From Bacilli bacterium (lineage in GTDB: Bacteria > Bacillota_I > Bacilli_A > RF39 > UBA660), in assembly GCA_028694645.1 (NCBI GenBank), contig JAQVKM010000001.1, forward strand, positions 164,219-214,954: a stretch of DNA of 50,736 nt. The letters run 5' to 3'. Under the pieces are notes generated by a model, which was not told where the DNA came from, searched no databases, and was given only the letters and a program-made list of their open reading frames with translations. The position numbers and the translations under genes are program-made. This document shows positions 31-7,084 of this stretch, one piece after another; the stretch's first letter is position 1; every line of letters starts with the position of its first letter.

Positions 31-471
31 ATGAAAAAAACAGGGTTTACGCTAATCGAATTATTAGCAGTTATCGTAATTTTAGCAATTATAGCATTAA
101 TTGCAACACCAATGATTTTAGGAGTTATCAATACTGCTAAAAAAGGTTCAGCAGAATCATCTACATTAGGATATGTTGATTCAGTTGAAAAATCAACAGT
201 AATCGCATTATTAAATGATGAAGCAAGTGGTTCAACTACAGCTTTAGCTGCAGGAACTTATTATGTAAATGCTGCAGGAAATTTAGCTTCAGTTAGTTCA
301 ACTGGAGAAGAAGAATTAGTAGTAAATTATAAAGGTGAAGCTCCAGAAGCTGGAGGAACTATTACAATTGGTTCTGAAGGTGACGTTACAGCTGCAACTT
401 TAGAATTCCCAAGTATCTATGGATATGCTGTAGATTATGCTAACAACAAAGCAACTGCAAGAAACAGCTAA
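31..471 (+). CDS. Type IV-like prepilin (pseudopilin), orphan
   Basis: This is a 146-residue prepilin. It starts with MKKTG followed by FTLIELLAVIVILA, the classic class III signal: a short basic leader, cleavage expected after Gly5, methylation of Phe, Glu at +5, and a hydrophobic helix to about residue 32. The rest is a small Ala/Gly/Ser/Thr-rich domain without cysteines. The start is supported by the strong Shine-Dalgarno GAGGAGG about 7 bases upstream. After export and processing by a prepilin peptidase it should sit in the membrane or assemble into a pilus-like fibre. No peptidase, ATPase or platform gene lies in this window. Its codons look richer in G/C-containing Ala and Gly than those of its neighbours, which may reflect high expression. 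The upstream promoter is outside the window, and a hairpin terminator follows. Class is sure; the substrate or role (adhesion, DNA uptake, secretion) is unknown. Confidence 0.88.
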   Translation: MKKTGFTLIELLAVIVILAIIALIATPMILGVINTAKKGSAESSTLGYVDSVEKSTVIALLNDEASGSTTALAAGTYYVNAAGNLASVSSTGEEELVVNYKGEAPEAGGTITIGSEGDVTAATLEFPSIYGYAVDYANNKATARNS

Positions 472-2812: not shown

Positions 2813-4150
2813 ATGTTAAATATTATAAGTATAATAATAGGCAAAATAATTATTAAAATAGGAAAGCCTTTAGGAAAAAGTAGTTCTTTGCCTGGGGTTA
2901 TAATATTAAAAATAAATAAAAAAATCTTTGATTATTTTAAATTGCCAAGTACTGTCATTGCGGTAACAGGCTCTTCTGGTAAGGGGTCTACATCATCATT
3001 AATATCTAAAATATTAAGACAAAACAATTATACAGTAGCACATAATTATATTGGCTCTAATTTAACATTTGGTATTTTAACTTTACTTTTGGAAAATACT
3101 AAATTAAATGGAAAAATAAATAAAGATATTTTAATATATGAAGTAGATGAAAGATATACAAAAGAAGTTTTTAAAAATGTAAAACCTAATTATCTTATTA
3201 TAACTAATATAACGAGAGATCAACCTCCAAGACAAGGACACTTTGATGTTGTTTTTGATGTGATAAATAATGCTATTACAGAAGATATGCACTTAATCTT
3301 AAATGGAGACGATCCTTTTTTACAAAAATTTGTTATAAATAAAAAAAATGAAGTAACATATTATGGAATAGAAAAAAACAAATTTTCTTATGAAATAAAC
3401 AAATTTGAAAATTTAAATATTAATTATTGTCCAATATGTAATAATAAGATAAGTTATAATTATTATAATTTTGAAAATACAGGAGATTATTATTGTGATA
3501 AATGTGGATTCAAAAGGCCAAACATTAATTATATGATTACAAATATAGATTATGACAATTCACAAATTCAAATAAATAATAAATATTATGTAACACTAAA
3601 TTCAGATATTTTATATTCAATATATAATAATTTAGCAGCTTTTAGTTTATGTTCAGTATTAAATATAGATCAAAATAAAATGTGTGATGAAATGAGCAAA
3701 ATCAATAAAAACAAAAAATTATTAGATATTTATGAAAACAAAAAAAGAAAAGTTATTGTTTTAAATAATAAAAATGAGAATGCTTCAACATTTAATCAAT
3801 CATTATTATATTTAACAAGATATGATGATCTAAAGACAATAGTAATCGGTTGGAAAGAAATAAGTAGAAGATATAATTTTGATGATTTATCATGGCTATA
3901 TGACATAAATTTTGAACTATTAAATAAAATGAATATTGAAAAAATTATATGTGTTGGTATTCATCGATATGATATAGCTGTAAGAATAAAATATAGTGAT
4001 ATTGATATAAAAAAAATAGAATTTTTTGATAAATTAGAAGATGCAACTGAATTTATAAAAAACAAAACAGAAGGAAATATATATGCTGTTTTGAATTTTG
4101 ATTATGTTAGACCATTTAATCAATTAATGCTTGGAAGTGATAAATTATGA
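2813..4150 (+). CDS. murT: MurT-type lipid II isoglutaminyl synthase ligase subunit
   Basis: MurT, with GatD, amidates the D-glutamate of lipid II: it activates the carboxylate with ATP and receives ammonia from GatD. This 445-residue protein has the Mur ligase P-loop (GSSGKGST, residues 53-60, closer to the FolC form GKGST than the usual MurT GKTTT). It has the MurT-specific Cys4 zinc ribbon (C206, C209, C228, C231) and the C-terminal DUF1727 segment with DLSWLYDINFE, which matches the MurT block carrying the catalytic Asp. The start has GGAAGTGAT upstream. The stop overlaps the gatD start by 4 bases (ATGA type), so the two are translated together as in Staphylococcus and Streptococcus. The MurT call is firm; activity depends on the odd GatD next to it. 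Confidence 0.92.
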   Translation: MLNIISIIIGKIIIKIGKPLGKSSSLPGVIILKINKKIFDYFKLPSTVIAVTGSSGKGSTSSLISKILRQNNYTVAHNYIGSNLTFGILTLLLENTKLNGKINKDILIYEVDERYTKEVFKNVKPNYLIITNITRDQPPRQGHFDVVFDVINNAITEDMHLILNGDDPFLQKFVINKKNEVTYYGIEKNKFSYEINKFENLNINYCPICNNKISYNYYNFENTGDYYCDKCGFKRPNINYMITNIDYDNSQIQINNKYYVTLNSDILYSIYNNLAAFSLCSVLNIDQNKMCDEMSKINKNKKLLDIYENKKRKVIVLNNKNENASTFNQSLLYLTRYDDLKTIVIGWKEISRRYNFDDLSWLYDINFELLNKMNIEKIICVGIHRYDIAVRIKYSDIDIKKIEFFDKLEDATEFIKNKTEGNIYAVLNFDYVRPFNQLMLGSDKL

Positions 4151-4884
4151 CAATAACAATAATGCATCTTTATTATGACATATTAAATTTATATGGTGAA
4201 AATGGTAATGTAAAAGCTTTGAAAATGTATTTTGAAACATTAGGAATTGATGTTAAAATTAAGTTTGTAACAATAAATGATACAATTAATTTAAAAGATG
4301 TAGATTTAATATATTTAGGTATGGGAACTGAACAAAATCAAAAATTAGTTATAGAACATATCAAAAAATATAAAAATCAATTTCAAAGCTATATAGAAAA
4401 TGATGGTTATTTATTATCTACTGGTAATAGTTTTGAACTTTTTGGTAAAAATATTATAGATAAAAACAACATTAATTATGATACTTTAGGTATATTTGAA
4501 TTTGTTTCTCATGAAGAAAATTTTAGATTAGTAGATGAAGCTTTATGTAAAACATCATTTTCTGATAACTATATAATTGGTTTTATTAATCGAAATAGTG
4601 TTATAAAAAATATAAGTGATAATTATTTATTTGAAATTGTTAAAGGAATTGGTAATTATCCAAAAAATATATATGAGGGGTACCACTATAAAAATTTTTA
4701 TGGTACATATCTAATTGGACCATTATTAGTTAGAAATCCTCATTTTTTAGAAGTTCTAGCTAACAAAATAATAAAAGATAAAGATAATAACTTTAAAATA
4801 AATAAAAATAATTTAGAAATAGAAAAAAAAGCATATAATGAATTTATGAATAATTATTATGTGGATTTTATAAATAAAAACTAA
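4147..4884 (+). CDS. gatD: GatD-like glutamine amidotransferase subunit, catalytic residues missing
   Basis: This is the 245-residue partner of MurT. The CobB/CobQ-like class I amidotransferase fold is recognisable from the start (IMHLYYDILNLYGENGN) to GTYLxGPLLVRNP. GatD normally hydrolyses glutamine with a Cys-His pair (C94 and H189 in S. aureus). Here the nucleophile block reads LLSTGNSFELFG (89-100) with no cysteine, and the only Cys of the whole protein is at 134. The histidine block reads GTYLIGPLL, with Ile190 in place of His. Position and overlap with murT leave little doubt about homology. Whether it still delivers ammonia is doubtful. It may act as a structural partner, with free ammonia or another glutaminase as source, or the pair may have a changed substrate. 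Confidence 0.85.
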   Translation: MTITIMHLYYDILNLYGENGNVKALKMYFETLGIDVKIKFVTINDTINLKDVDLIYLGMGTEQNQKLVIEHIKKYKNQFQSYIENDGYLLSTGNSFELFGKNIIDKNNINYDTLGIFEFVSHEENFRLVDEALCKTSFSDNYIIGFINRNSVIKNISDNYLFEIVKGIGNYPKNIYEGYHYKNFYGTYLIGPLLVRNPHFLEVLANKIIKDKDNNFKINKNNLEIEKKAYNEFMNNYYVDFINKN

Positions 4885-4901: not shown

Positions 4902-4928
4902 TTAGCACTCTATATTGACAAGTGCTAA
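4902..4928 (+). promoter_or_regulatory. CIRCE operator (HrcA-binding site)
   Basis: TTAGCACTC, nine bases, then AAGTGCTAA match the CIRCE consensus TTAGCACTC-N9-GAGTGCTAA with one mismatch. It overlaps the -35 box of clpB, so bound HrcA would block transcription until heat or misfolding stress. Confidence 0.93.
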
Positions 4929-4984: not shown

Positions 4985-7084
4985 ATGAATATGCAAAATA
5001 TGGAAGAAGTAGATGTTTTAGAAAAATATGGTCGCGATATAGTTGCTTATGCCAAAGATGGAAAAATTGATCCCGTTATTGGACGAGATGATGAAATAAG
5101 AAGTATTACTAGAATATTATCTAGAAAAACAAAAAACAATCCAGTTTTAATAGGAGAACCAGGAGTAGGAAAAACAGCAATTGTAGAAGGATTAGCTTTA
5201 CGTATTATTAAAGGTGATGTTCCTTCATCTTTAAAAGGCAAAATCATTTGGGAATTAGATATGGGAGCTTTAATAGCAGGAGCTAAATATCGTGGTGAAT
5301 TTGAAGAAAGATTAAAAGCAGTGTTAAAAAGAATAAAAGAAAGTAATGGCGAAATCATTATGTTTATAGATGAAATACATATGATTGTTGGTAATTCAGC
5401 AGAAGGAGCAGTTGATACTTCAAATATGTTAAAACCAATGTTAGCTCGTGGTGAAATTAAAGTAATAGGAGCTACAACATTAAATGAGTATCGAAAATAT
5501 ATAGAAAAAGATGGAGCATTAGAAAGAAGATTTGAAAGAATTATTGTTAGTGCTCCAAGCGTAGAAGATACTATTACTATTTTAAGAGGATTAAAATCAA
5601 GATTTGAATTATATCATCAAGTTGACATTAAAGATAAAGCATTAATAGCAGCAGCTACATTATCTGATCGTTATATTACAGATAGATATTTACCAGATAA
5701 AGCTATTGATTTAGTAGATGAAGCATGTGCGACTATTAAAATACAACTTGATTCAGTTCCTTTTGATATTGATATTTTAACAAGAAAAATAATGGGATTA
5801 CAAATAGAAATGGAAGCTATCAAAAAAGACAAAGATGAATTATCTAAAAAAAGAGTATTAGAAATAAAAGATGAAATAGCTATATTACAAAAACAAGAAA
5901 ATGATTTAAAAAAAGAATGGGATAATGAAAAATTACTAAAAAATAAAATAAACACCAAAAAGAAAGAATTAGAAACAGCTAGATTCAAACTAGAACAAGC
6001 AGAAAACACTTATGATTTAGAAACAGCAGCAAGACTAAAACATGGAATTATTCCAACTTTAGAAGAAGAACTTAATAATTTAAAACAACAAAATTCATCA
6101 AAAATATTAAGTGATGTTGTAAATGAAGATGATATTGCAAACATTATTTCAAAATGGACTAATATTCCAATAAAAAAACTAGTAGGTGGAGAAAAAGAAA
6201 AATTGCTTCATTTAACTGAAAATATGAAAAAAAGAGTTATGGGACAAGATGAAGCTATAGAAATGGTAAGCCAAGCCATTATTAGAGCTCGTGCAGGAAT
6301 TAAAGATCCTAAAAAACCAATTGGTTCATTTATTTTTCTAGGACCAACAGGAGTAGGTAAAACAGAAGTGGCTCGTAGTCTTGCTTATGAACTTTTCGAT
6401 GATGAAAGACATATGATTAGAATCGATATGAGTGAATATATGGAATCATATTCAGTTTCTAGATTGATTGGAGCTCCTCCAGGATATGTTGGATATGATG
6501 AAGGAGGACAATTGACAGAAGCCGTTAAAAGAAATCCTTATAGCATAGTATTATTCGATGAAATAGAAAAAGCCCATAAAGATGTATTTAATATATTATT
6601 ACAAATATTAGATGATGGAAGAATAACTGACTCACAAGGAAGAACAGTTGATTTTAAAAATACGATTATTATAATGACTTCAAATCTAGGTAGTGAGTAT
6701 ATATTAAATAATGAACAAAACTCATATGATTTAGTTATGAATGAATTAAGACATACATTTAGGCCAGAATTCATAAATAGAATTGATGAAATAGTTGTAT
6801 TCAAATCATTAAATAAAAATGTTATTTATGATATTTTAAATAAAATAATTAAAGAAATAGAAGAAAGACTTAAAAATATTAACATCAAAATTAATATTGA
6901 TGATCAAGCTAAAGAATTCATAATTAATGAATCATTTGATGAATCATTTGGTGCCCGACCAATAAAAAGATATGTAACTAAAAACATTGAAACTTTAATA
7001 GCTAATTTGATAATTCAAGATAAAATAAAATATGGAGATGTCATTAATATGAAAATTGATAATGATAAATTAACTATTCAATAA
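4985..7084 (+). CDS. clpB: ClpB-type disaggregase without N-terminal domain
   Basis: This AAA+ chaperone pulls proteins out of aggregates together with DnaK. The 699-residue protein starts almost directly at the first AAA+ module: Walker A GEPGVGKT (57-64), Walker B IIMFIDEIH. A long charged coiled-coil middle domain follows (about 265-390), then the second AAA+ module with GPTGVGKT near 452-460, Walker B SIVLFDEIEKAH, and the C-terminal D2 small domain. The long middle domain and lack of a ClpP-binding IGF-type loop that I can see point to ClpB rather than ClpC. Full-length ClpB has about 850-870 residues; the missing part is the mobile N domain. The ATG follows a strong AAGGAGGG, so the short form is encoded as such, similar in size to mycoplasma ClpB. 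Control is by CIRCE/HrcA. Confidence 0.9.
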   Translation: MNMQNMEEVDVLEKYGRDIVAYAKDGKIDPVIGRDDEIRSITRILSRKTKNNPVLIGEPGVGKTAIVEGLALRIIKGDVPSSLKGKIIWELDMGALIAGAKYRGEFEERLKAVLKRIKESNGEIIMFIDEIHMIVGNSAEGAVDTSNMLKPMLARGEIKVIGATTLNEYRKYIEKDGALERRFERIIVSAPSVEDTITILRGLKSRFELYHQVDIKDKALIAAATLSDRYITDRYLPDKAIDLVDEACATIKIQLDSVPFDIDILTRKIMGLQIEMEAIKKDKDELSKKRVLEIKDEIAILQKQENDLKKEWDNEKLLKNKINTKKKELETARFKLEQAENTYDLETAARLKHGIIPTLEEELNNLKQQNSSKILSDVVNEDDIANIISKWTNIPIKKLVGGEKEKLLHLTENMKKRVMGQDEAIEMVSQAIIRARAGIKDPKKPIGSFIFLGPTGVGKTEVARSLAYELFDDERHMIRIDMSEYMESYSVSRLIGAPPGYVGYDEGGQLTEAVKRNPYSIVLFDEIEKAHKDVFNILLQILDDGRITDSQGRTVDFKNTIIIMTSNLGSEYILNNEQNSYDLVMNELRHTFRPEFINRIDEIVVFKSLNKNVIYDILNKIIKEIEERLKNINIKINIDDQAKEFIINESFDESFGARPIKRYVTKNIETLIANLIIQDKIKYGDVINMKIDNDKLTIQ

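Follow-up and report, generated by a model that had tools for sequence, protein, structure and literature searches.

MurT/GatD is an essential enzyme of several Gram-positive pathogens and a target for drugs; its glutaminase half is regarded as the supplier of nitrogen. The closest described relatives of the pair discussed here are the lipid II isoglutaminyl synthases of Staphylococcus aureus (SA1708/SA1707) and Streptococcus pneumoniae. None of the S. aureus GatD variants C94A, C94S, C94G, and H189A shows activity with glutamine (PMC5871853, PMC6113224, PMC3266927), and Arg128 of GatD takes part in glutamine sequestration (PMC5871853). The complex with GatD-C94G has lost glutamine-dependent amidation and keeps NH3-dependent amidation of lipid II at pH 8.5 (PMC3266927). 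MurT without GatD is inactive, and GatD is still needed for the NH3-dependent reaction (PMC3266927, PMC6085368). In human CPS1, the glutaminase Cys is replaced by Ser and ammonia is the nitrogen source (PMC4655335), while the archaeal MurT-like ligases are MurT-family ligases without a working glutaminase (PMC11915815). A search of the open-licence PMC literature gave no prior paper on a dead GatD that is kept with MurT.

In the window, i.e., the whole stretch of 50,736 nucleotides that was analyzed, a murT-like gene (2813–4150, + strand) and a gatD-like gene (4147–4884, + strand) overlap by 4 nt (ATGA). The latter encodes 245 aa and is assigned, from PDB and Pfam matches and an AF2 model, as a glutaminase subunit of class I (GATase_3) that lacks both catalytic residues, Cys and His, a pseudo-GatD. 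Its PDB matches are solely GatDs of MurT/GatD complexes (5n9m, 6gs2, 6fqb, and 9sq9; E 1e-23 to 1e-29), Pfam GATase_3 scores 51.9 bits against a cut-off of 27, and the protein has the class I GATase fold of the CobB/CobQ type, including the GatD C-terminal helix. The top Foldseek matches of the AF2 model (pLDDT 96.8) are all GatD (TM 0.84–0.88; best, 6gs2_A, TM 0.88). Domain and structure matches of the murT-like product identify a Mur ligase middle domain, a Cys4 zinc ribbon, and a MurT_C domain (PF08245, 43.3 bits; PF08353, 68.9 bits); its AF2 model (pLDDT 91.9) best matches MurT structures, and its close relatives in the structure database are all MurT, with pseudomurein ligase far behind. 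The gene pair, its order, the overlap, and the folds are like those of the S. aureus and S. pneumoniae systems, as are the ATP and acceptor residues of MurT, its zinc ribbon, Asp349, and the interface residues of GatD. Unlike in those systems, GatD here lacks Cys94 and His189 and has changed oxyanion and elbow residues, MurT carries GSSGKGST and SRRY, and both proteins score far under the curated NCBIfam equivalog cut-offs (GatD, NF045636, 111.6 bits versus 400; MurT, NF045635, 193.9 bits versus 800).

S. aureus GatD and the protein encoded here align without gaps (LTICGGYQFLG/LSTGNSFELFG), which places Gly93 at Cys94, Asn94 at Gly95, Ser95 at Gly96, Glu97 at Gln98, and Ile190 at His189. The pseudo nucleophile elbow STGNSFELFG (residues 91–100; 4417–4446, +) is a family-conserved motif, and Ile190 (4714–4716, +) lies in GTYLIGPLL. 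An earlier, sequence-only reading of this DNA had set STGNSFELFG against the C-G-G block and had noted that GTYLIGPLL is without the catalytic His. Both losses stand, but the register at the elbow needs correction: Gly93, not Thr92, sits on Cys94, and Thr92 is one position earlier. The same reading placed the sole Cys, C134, off the active site; it lies in a strand, and its column is F, A, Y, or L in relatives. Another Cys as replacement nucleophile is ruled out, since GatD is entirely free of Cys in 16 of 63 diverse relatives. A search for a second, intact GatD found none in this genome (1.22 Mb, 92.5% complete). Among 133 non-canonical GatDs, 113 retain Arg127 (4525–4527, +), the equivalent of S. 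aureus Arg128. Because the published Cys94 and His189 mutants are inactive, glutaminase activity of GatD here is predicted to be absent, which supports the earlier view that glutamine hydrolysis in the usual way seems impossible. A general loss of glutaminase sites in the genome is ruled out by PyrG, in which the site is intact (GICLGMQ and FHPEF); the loss is therefore GatD-specific.

The zinc ribbon of MurT (Cys206, 209, 228, and 231; 3428–3505, +) is kept in the clade, with the fourth Cys in 69%. Asp358 (3884–3886, +) aligns with S. aureus Asp349, the third member of the GatD triad (PMC6113224), and is retained in 97% of the clade. The ATP and acceptor residues Lys59, Asn85, Glu108, Asp112/Glu113, Asp136, and Arg140 are present as K57, N83, E110, D112/E113, D136, and R140, each ~95–97% conserved in the clade. 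In S. pneumoniae MurT, mutation of K59, N85, D112/E113, D136, or R140 abolishes activity, whereas the D139 mutant has 71% activity and mutation of E143 has no effect (PMC6085368, Table 2). Asp139 and Glu143 (S. pneumoniae numbering) are the ones lost from clade MurT. On the GatD side of the interface, the channel plug Tyr16 (S. pneumoniae Tyr30) and the MurT contact Gly20 (S. pneumoniae Gly34) are each ~93–95% kept. Three parts of MurT are altered in step with the catalytic loss in GatD: the P-loop, GSSGKGST (2969–2992, +; canonical GTNGKTTT), the canonical RDQMDR, which reads RDQPPR, and the canonical ND..DG (DNAAD) motif, which is replaced by an SRRY loop (3863–3874, +). All 23 canonical pairs combine an N[DN]..DG-type loop with a TNGK[TS]-type P-loop (GTNGK in 22, ATNGK in one), while the dead pairs of the main clade combine IS-x-RY (S351 97%, R353 92%, Y354 95%) with GSSGKGS.

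When proteins were searched in 291 genomes from the family to which this genome belongs (RF39/UBA660-type gut Bacilli), 128 gave a GatD match, and 130 GatD genes and one fragment were extracted and aligned; nearly all of the compared sequences come from metagenome-assembled genomes. Both catalytic residues are absent in 125 of the 130 genes, with Gly or Ser at the Cys94 position and I, L, V, T, or F at that of His189, and GatD is canonical in five (genera g24, g45, and g148). The sequence-only reading had proposed looking for T-G-N and L-I-G-P forms in related genomes, and the 125 genes indeed have a common motif, [VIL]-T-G-N-[SA]-x-E-L-F-G...L-[ILV]-G-P, conserved over more than 60 genera (T92 and G93 98%, N94 89%, F99 92%, G191 and P192 99%). 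The recurrence of the same state in these genes excludes chance as well as sequencing error or an artefact of one genome. The dead GatD is thus of long standing and clade-wide; it has a conserved motif of its own, and MurT has changed along with it. To our knowledge, no member of this clade has been studied biochemically. An order-level search returned matches from the same family only, and the 24 GatDs retrieved from other families of the class comprise 19 canonical, three dead TGN-type, and two otherwise altered proteins. In trees of GatD and of MurT, a single branch (support 89 and 93) has every dead pair to one side of it, which favors one origin without proving it; the glutaminase of GatD was probably inactivated once, long ago.

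Two GatDs of another family (loci L271 and L272, genomes G377 and G388) show a different loss, with Glu in place of Cys94 and Arg in place of His189 (AIEQ../TQLRGP). The MurT beside them is without the Asp349 loop, and these pairs stand apart in the trees (100); apparently, they represent a second, independent loss. Several genomes with the main pair also carry a second, divergent dead MurT/GatD pair (L101, L105, L111–L112, L114, L116–L117, L119, L121–L122, and L126–L130), in whose MurT RDQ is replaced by RDS and Asp349 is mostly missing. One genome with a canonical pair also has, at the end of a contig, a MurT of the A type (L279, G180:C2, with L104) that is 83% identical over 241 columns to MurT of another genus, which may reflect true coexistence, transfer, or contamination.

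The overlap of murT and gatD had earlier been taken to mean that the pair is held by selection, and this is borne out by evidence beyond the overlap. Within genera, dN/dS of the dead GatD is ~0.05–0.31, comparable to that of its own MurT and of canonical GatD (rough Nei-Gojobori estimates from within-genus pairs, with saturated pairs left out). MurT is present in 126 and GatD in 128 of the 291 family genomes, together except for contig-end cases and two weak GatD matches, and the two co-occur in ~125 of 291. In genus g42, murT and gatD are on separate contigs in three of three genomes and both are retained, which rules out translational coupling to murT as the sole cause of GatD retention. Such coupling is what an ordinary decay would require, in which GatD is being lost and is held just by its link to murT. 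In its favor, the pair is absent from half of the family, and a single genome carries a disrupted GatD, a relic interrupted by three in-frame stops (L280, G308:C21), the only clear pseudogene seen. However, the low dN/dS, the motif conserved over more than 60 genera, the retention of GatD where it is unlinked, and the placement of the dead pairs in an old single clade already contradict decay, which is very improbable. Comparing the presence of the pair with peptidoglycan capacity is uninformative, since MraY is found nearly everywhere (286 of 291 family genomes).

With the catalytic pair lost yet both genes strongly selected, either MurT receives its nitrogen by another route or a group other than ammonia is attached. 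The sequence-only reading had arrived at this fork, with ammonia from elsewhere on one branch and another function on the other; it was the right fork. GatD is very probably a dead but required subunit of MurT. While its two catalytic residues, Cys and His, are lost, the protein has retained its fold and MurT-facing residues, it is still paired, and it evolves under purifying selection. We lean, with moderate confidence, toward the complete statement that GatD is a pseudo-glutaminase and the obligatory partner of a MurT that amidates lipid II with free ammonia. In this model, GatD would stay as a structural and activating subunit, MurT would use ATP to activate the D-Glu carboxylate of lipid II (or lipid I), and free ammonia would enter without glutamine hydrolysis and be used by MurT to amidate the activated D-Glu. 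The natural pair would then act as S. aureus GatD-C94G/MurT does in vitro. The two share the exact Cys to Gly change at the nucleophile and an intact MurT partner (PMC3266927); unlike in the laboratory mutant, His189 is also gone here and MurT has diverged alongside. The working would be CPS1-like, as a dead glutaminase part is retained in both and, judged from sequence, the pair combines a dead site with intact synthase residues. The CPS1 synthase takes free ammonia (PMC4655335), a property that the pair here would share, but CPS1 is another enzyme, with fused domains, a Cys to Ser change, and a place in the urea cycle. The archaeal ligases differ in that GatD is absent there and kept here (PMC11915815).

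Several results count for the ammonia model, namely the loss of Cys94 and His189 in 125/130 genes with a new elbow motif under a dN/dS of 0.05–0.31, and the retention of MurT residues whose mutation kills activity alongside the loss of residues that can be mutated with little or no effect. MurC, MurD, MurE, MurF, Ddl, and MraY are all found in the genome, and peptidoglycan is therefore presumably made. Glutamine synthetase and an ammonium transporter (Amt) were not detected in this single, 92.5% complete genome (controls 14/14), and, given that 7.5% of the genome is absent, their lack in the organism is only suggestive. The intact PyrG site was counted in favor as well, but it also implies a cellular supply of glutamine, which speaks against the use of ammonia. 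Against it are, moreover, the lack of an Amt match and the fact that the S. aureus complex takes NH3 only at elevated and not at neutral pH. The co-change of the MurT P-loop and ND..DG loop is not required by a plain swap of glutamine for ammonia.

This co-change leaves a different nucleophile as the second possibility. MurT may have reverted to an amine or amino-acid ligase that attaches glycine, another amino acid, or a diamine at the D-Glu α-carboxyl of lipid II, with GatD as a scaffold or lid. By strand order, the SRRY loop matches the DNPR/DNPA motif that MurE uses to recognize its incoming amino acid (PMC3829189), and the Arg in this loop could hold a carboxylate. Peptidoglycans with such groups on the D-Glu α-carboxyl are known, with Gly in Intrasporangium (PMC3035309) and cadaverine or putrescine in Negativicutes (PMC10628300). 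The correspondence to MurE is one of motif, however, as a profile comparison of MurT with MurE of the same genome aligned only the middle domain and ended before the SRRY loop. In the known complexes, ammonia is delivered with the help of Asp358 and Asp364 of MurT and of the GatD interface, all of which are kept here, and a neighbor that makes or supplies an amine does not recur. Across the genera compared, no nitrogen- or amine-supplying gene recurs beside the pair; the neighbors vary by genus (pheT, divIB, murB, and ftsA, with divIB, murB, or ftsA adjoining in several genera), which rules out a recurrent third operon member as the nitrogen source. We regard a switch of nucleophile as possible but doubtful, and the same tentative standing is given to the pair as a peptidoglycan ligase of new specificity, with an SRRY MurT and GatD repurposed as a pseudoenzyme lid. 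If true, a bacterial wall decoration with its own enzyme would be present in hundreds of gut species.

Two further readings concern GatD itself. It may bind glutamine without hydrolysis and gate an ammonia-using MurT by nitrogen status, which would fit the conservation of Arg127 and of the pocket-lining Asn14, Tyr16, Asn21, and Asn148. The altered oxyanion residues (Gly60 and Gly95) and Gln98, the hydrophobic pocket that results from Ile or Leu at His189, and the surface position of Arg128, which may serve the fold or interface, make such a sensor unlikely. Thr92 (98%), with Asn94 and Glu97, might instead form another amidase center, as T-G-N-[SA]-x-[ED] is conserved like a catalytic motif. 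Thr92, however, precedes the elbow position and stands at a site where canonical GatD has I or V, a conserved His or other clear base near the elbow is absent, and a structural role for the motif is simpler; a new hydrolase site is thus very improbable.

Under the ammonia model or that of a new specificity, the dead pair predicts ammonia-fed wall amidation or a novel wall decoration. An altered wall could change recognition by host sensors of D-Glu-containing muropeptides. As a natural experiment, the clade spans no fewer than 60 genera of gut bacteria, abundant and uncultured, that have kept an inactivated GatD, and it makes roles of GatD beyond glutamine hydrolysis testable.

The surroundings of the pair and other wall genes gave some additional observations. 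The genome has two full MraY genes over the curated cut-off (G000:C11:14906–15841 and G000:C13:11965–12882, L291), the second of which overlaps an FtsW/RodA-type gene, and two strong MraY matches are also seen in many family genomes. Directly 3′ of murC, L138:4824–5414 encodes a 196-aa class I GATase/Peptidase C26-like protein in which GICLGMQ and QWHPE are intact. Upstream of murE, three tandem proteins (L140:4912–7784) have near-identical type IV pilin-like N-termini and differing C-termini, and another protein with such an N-terminus is encoded at the start of the window (31–471). Finally, a CIRCE element with one mismatch (4902–4928; 0 expected) precedes a ClpB/ClpC-type AAA+ gene (4985–7084), which begins at the first AAA module, with the N-terminal domain match absent.
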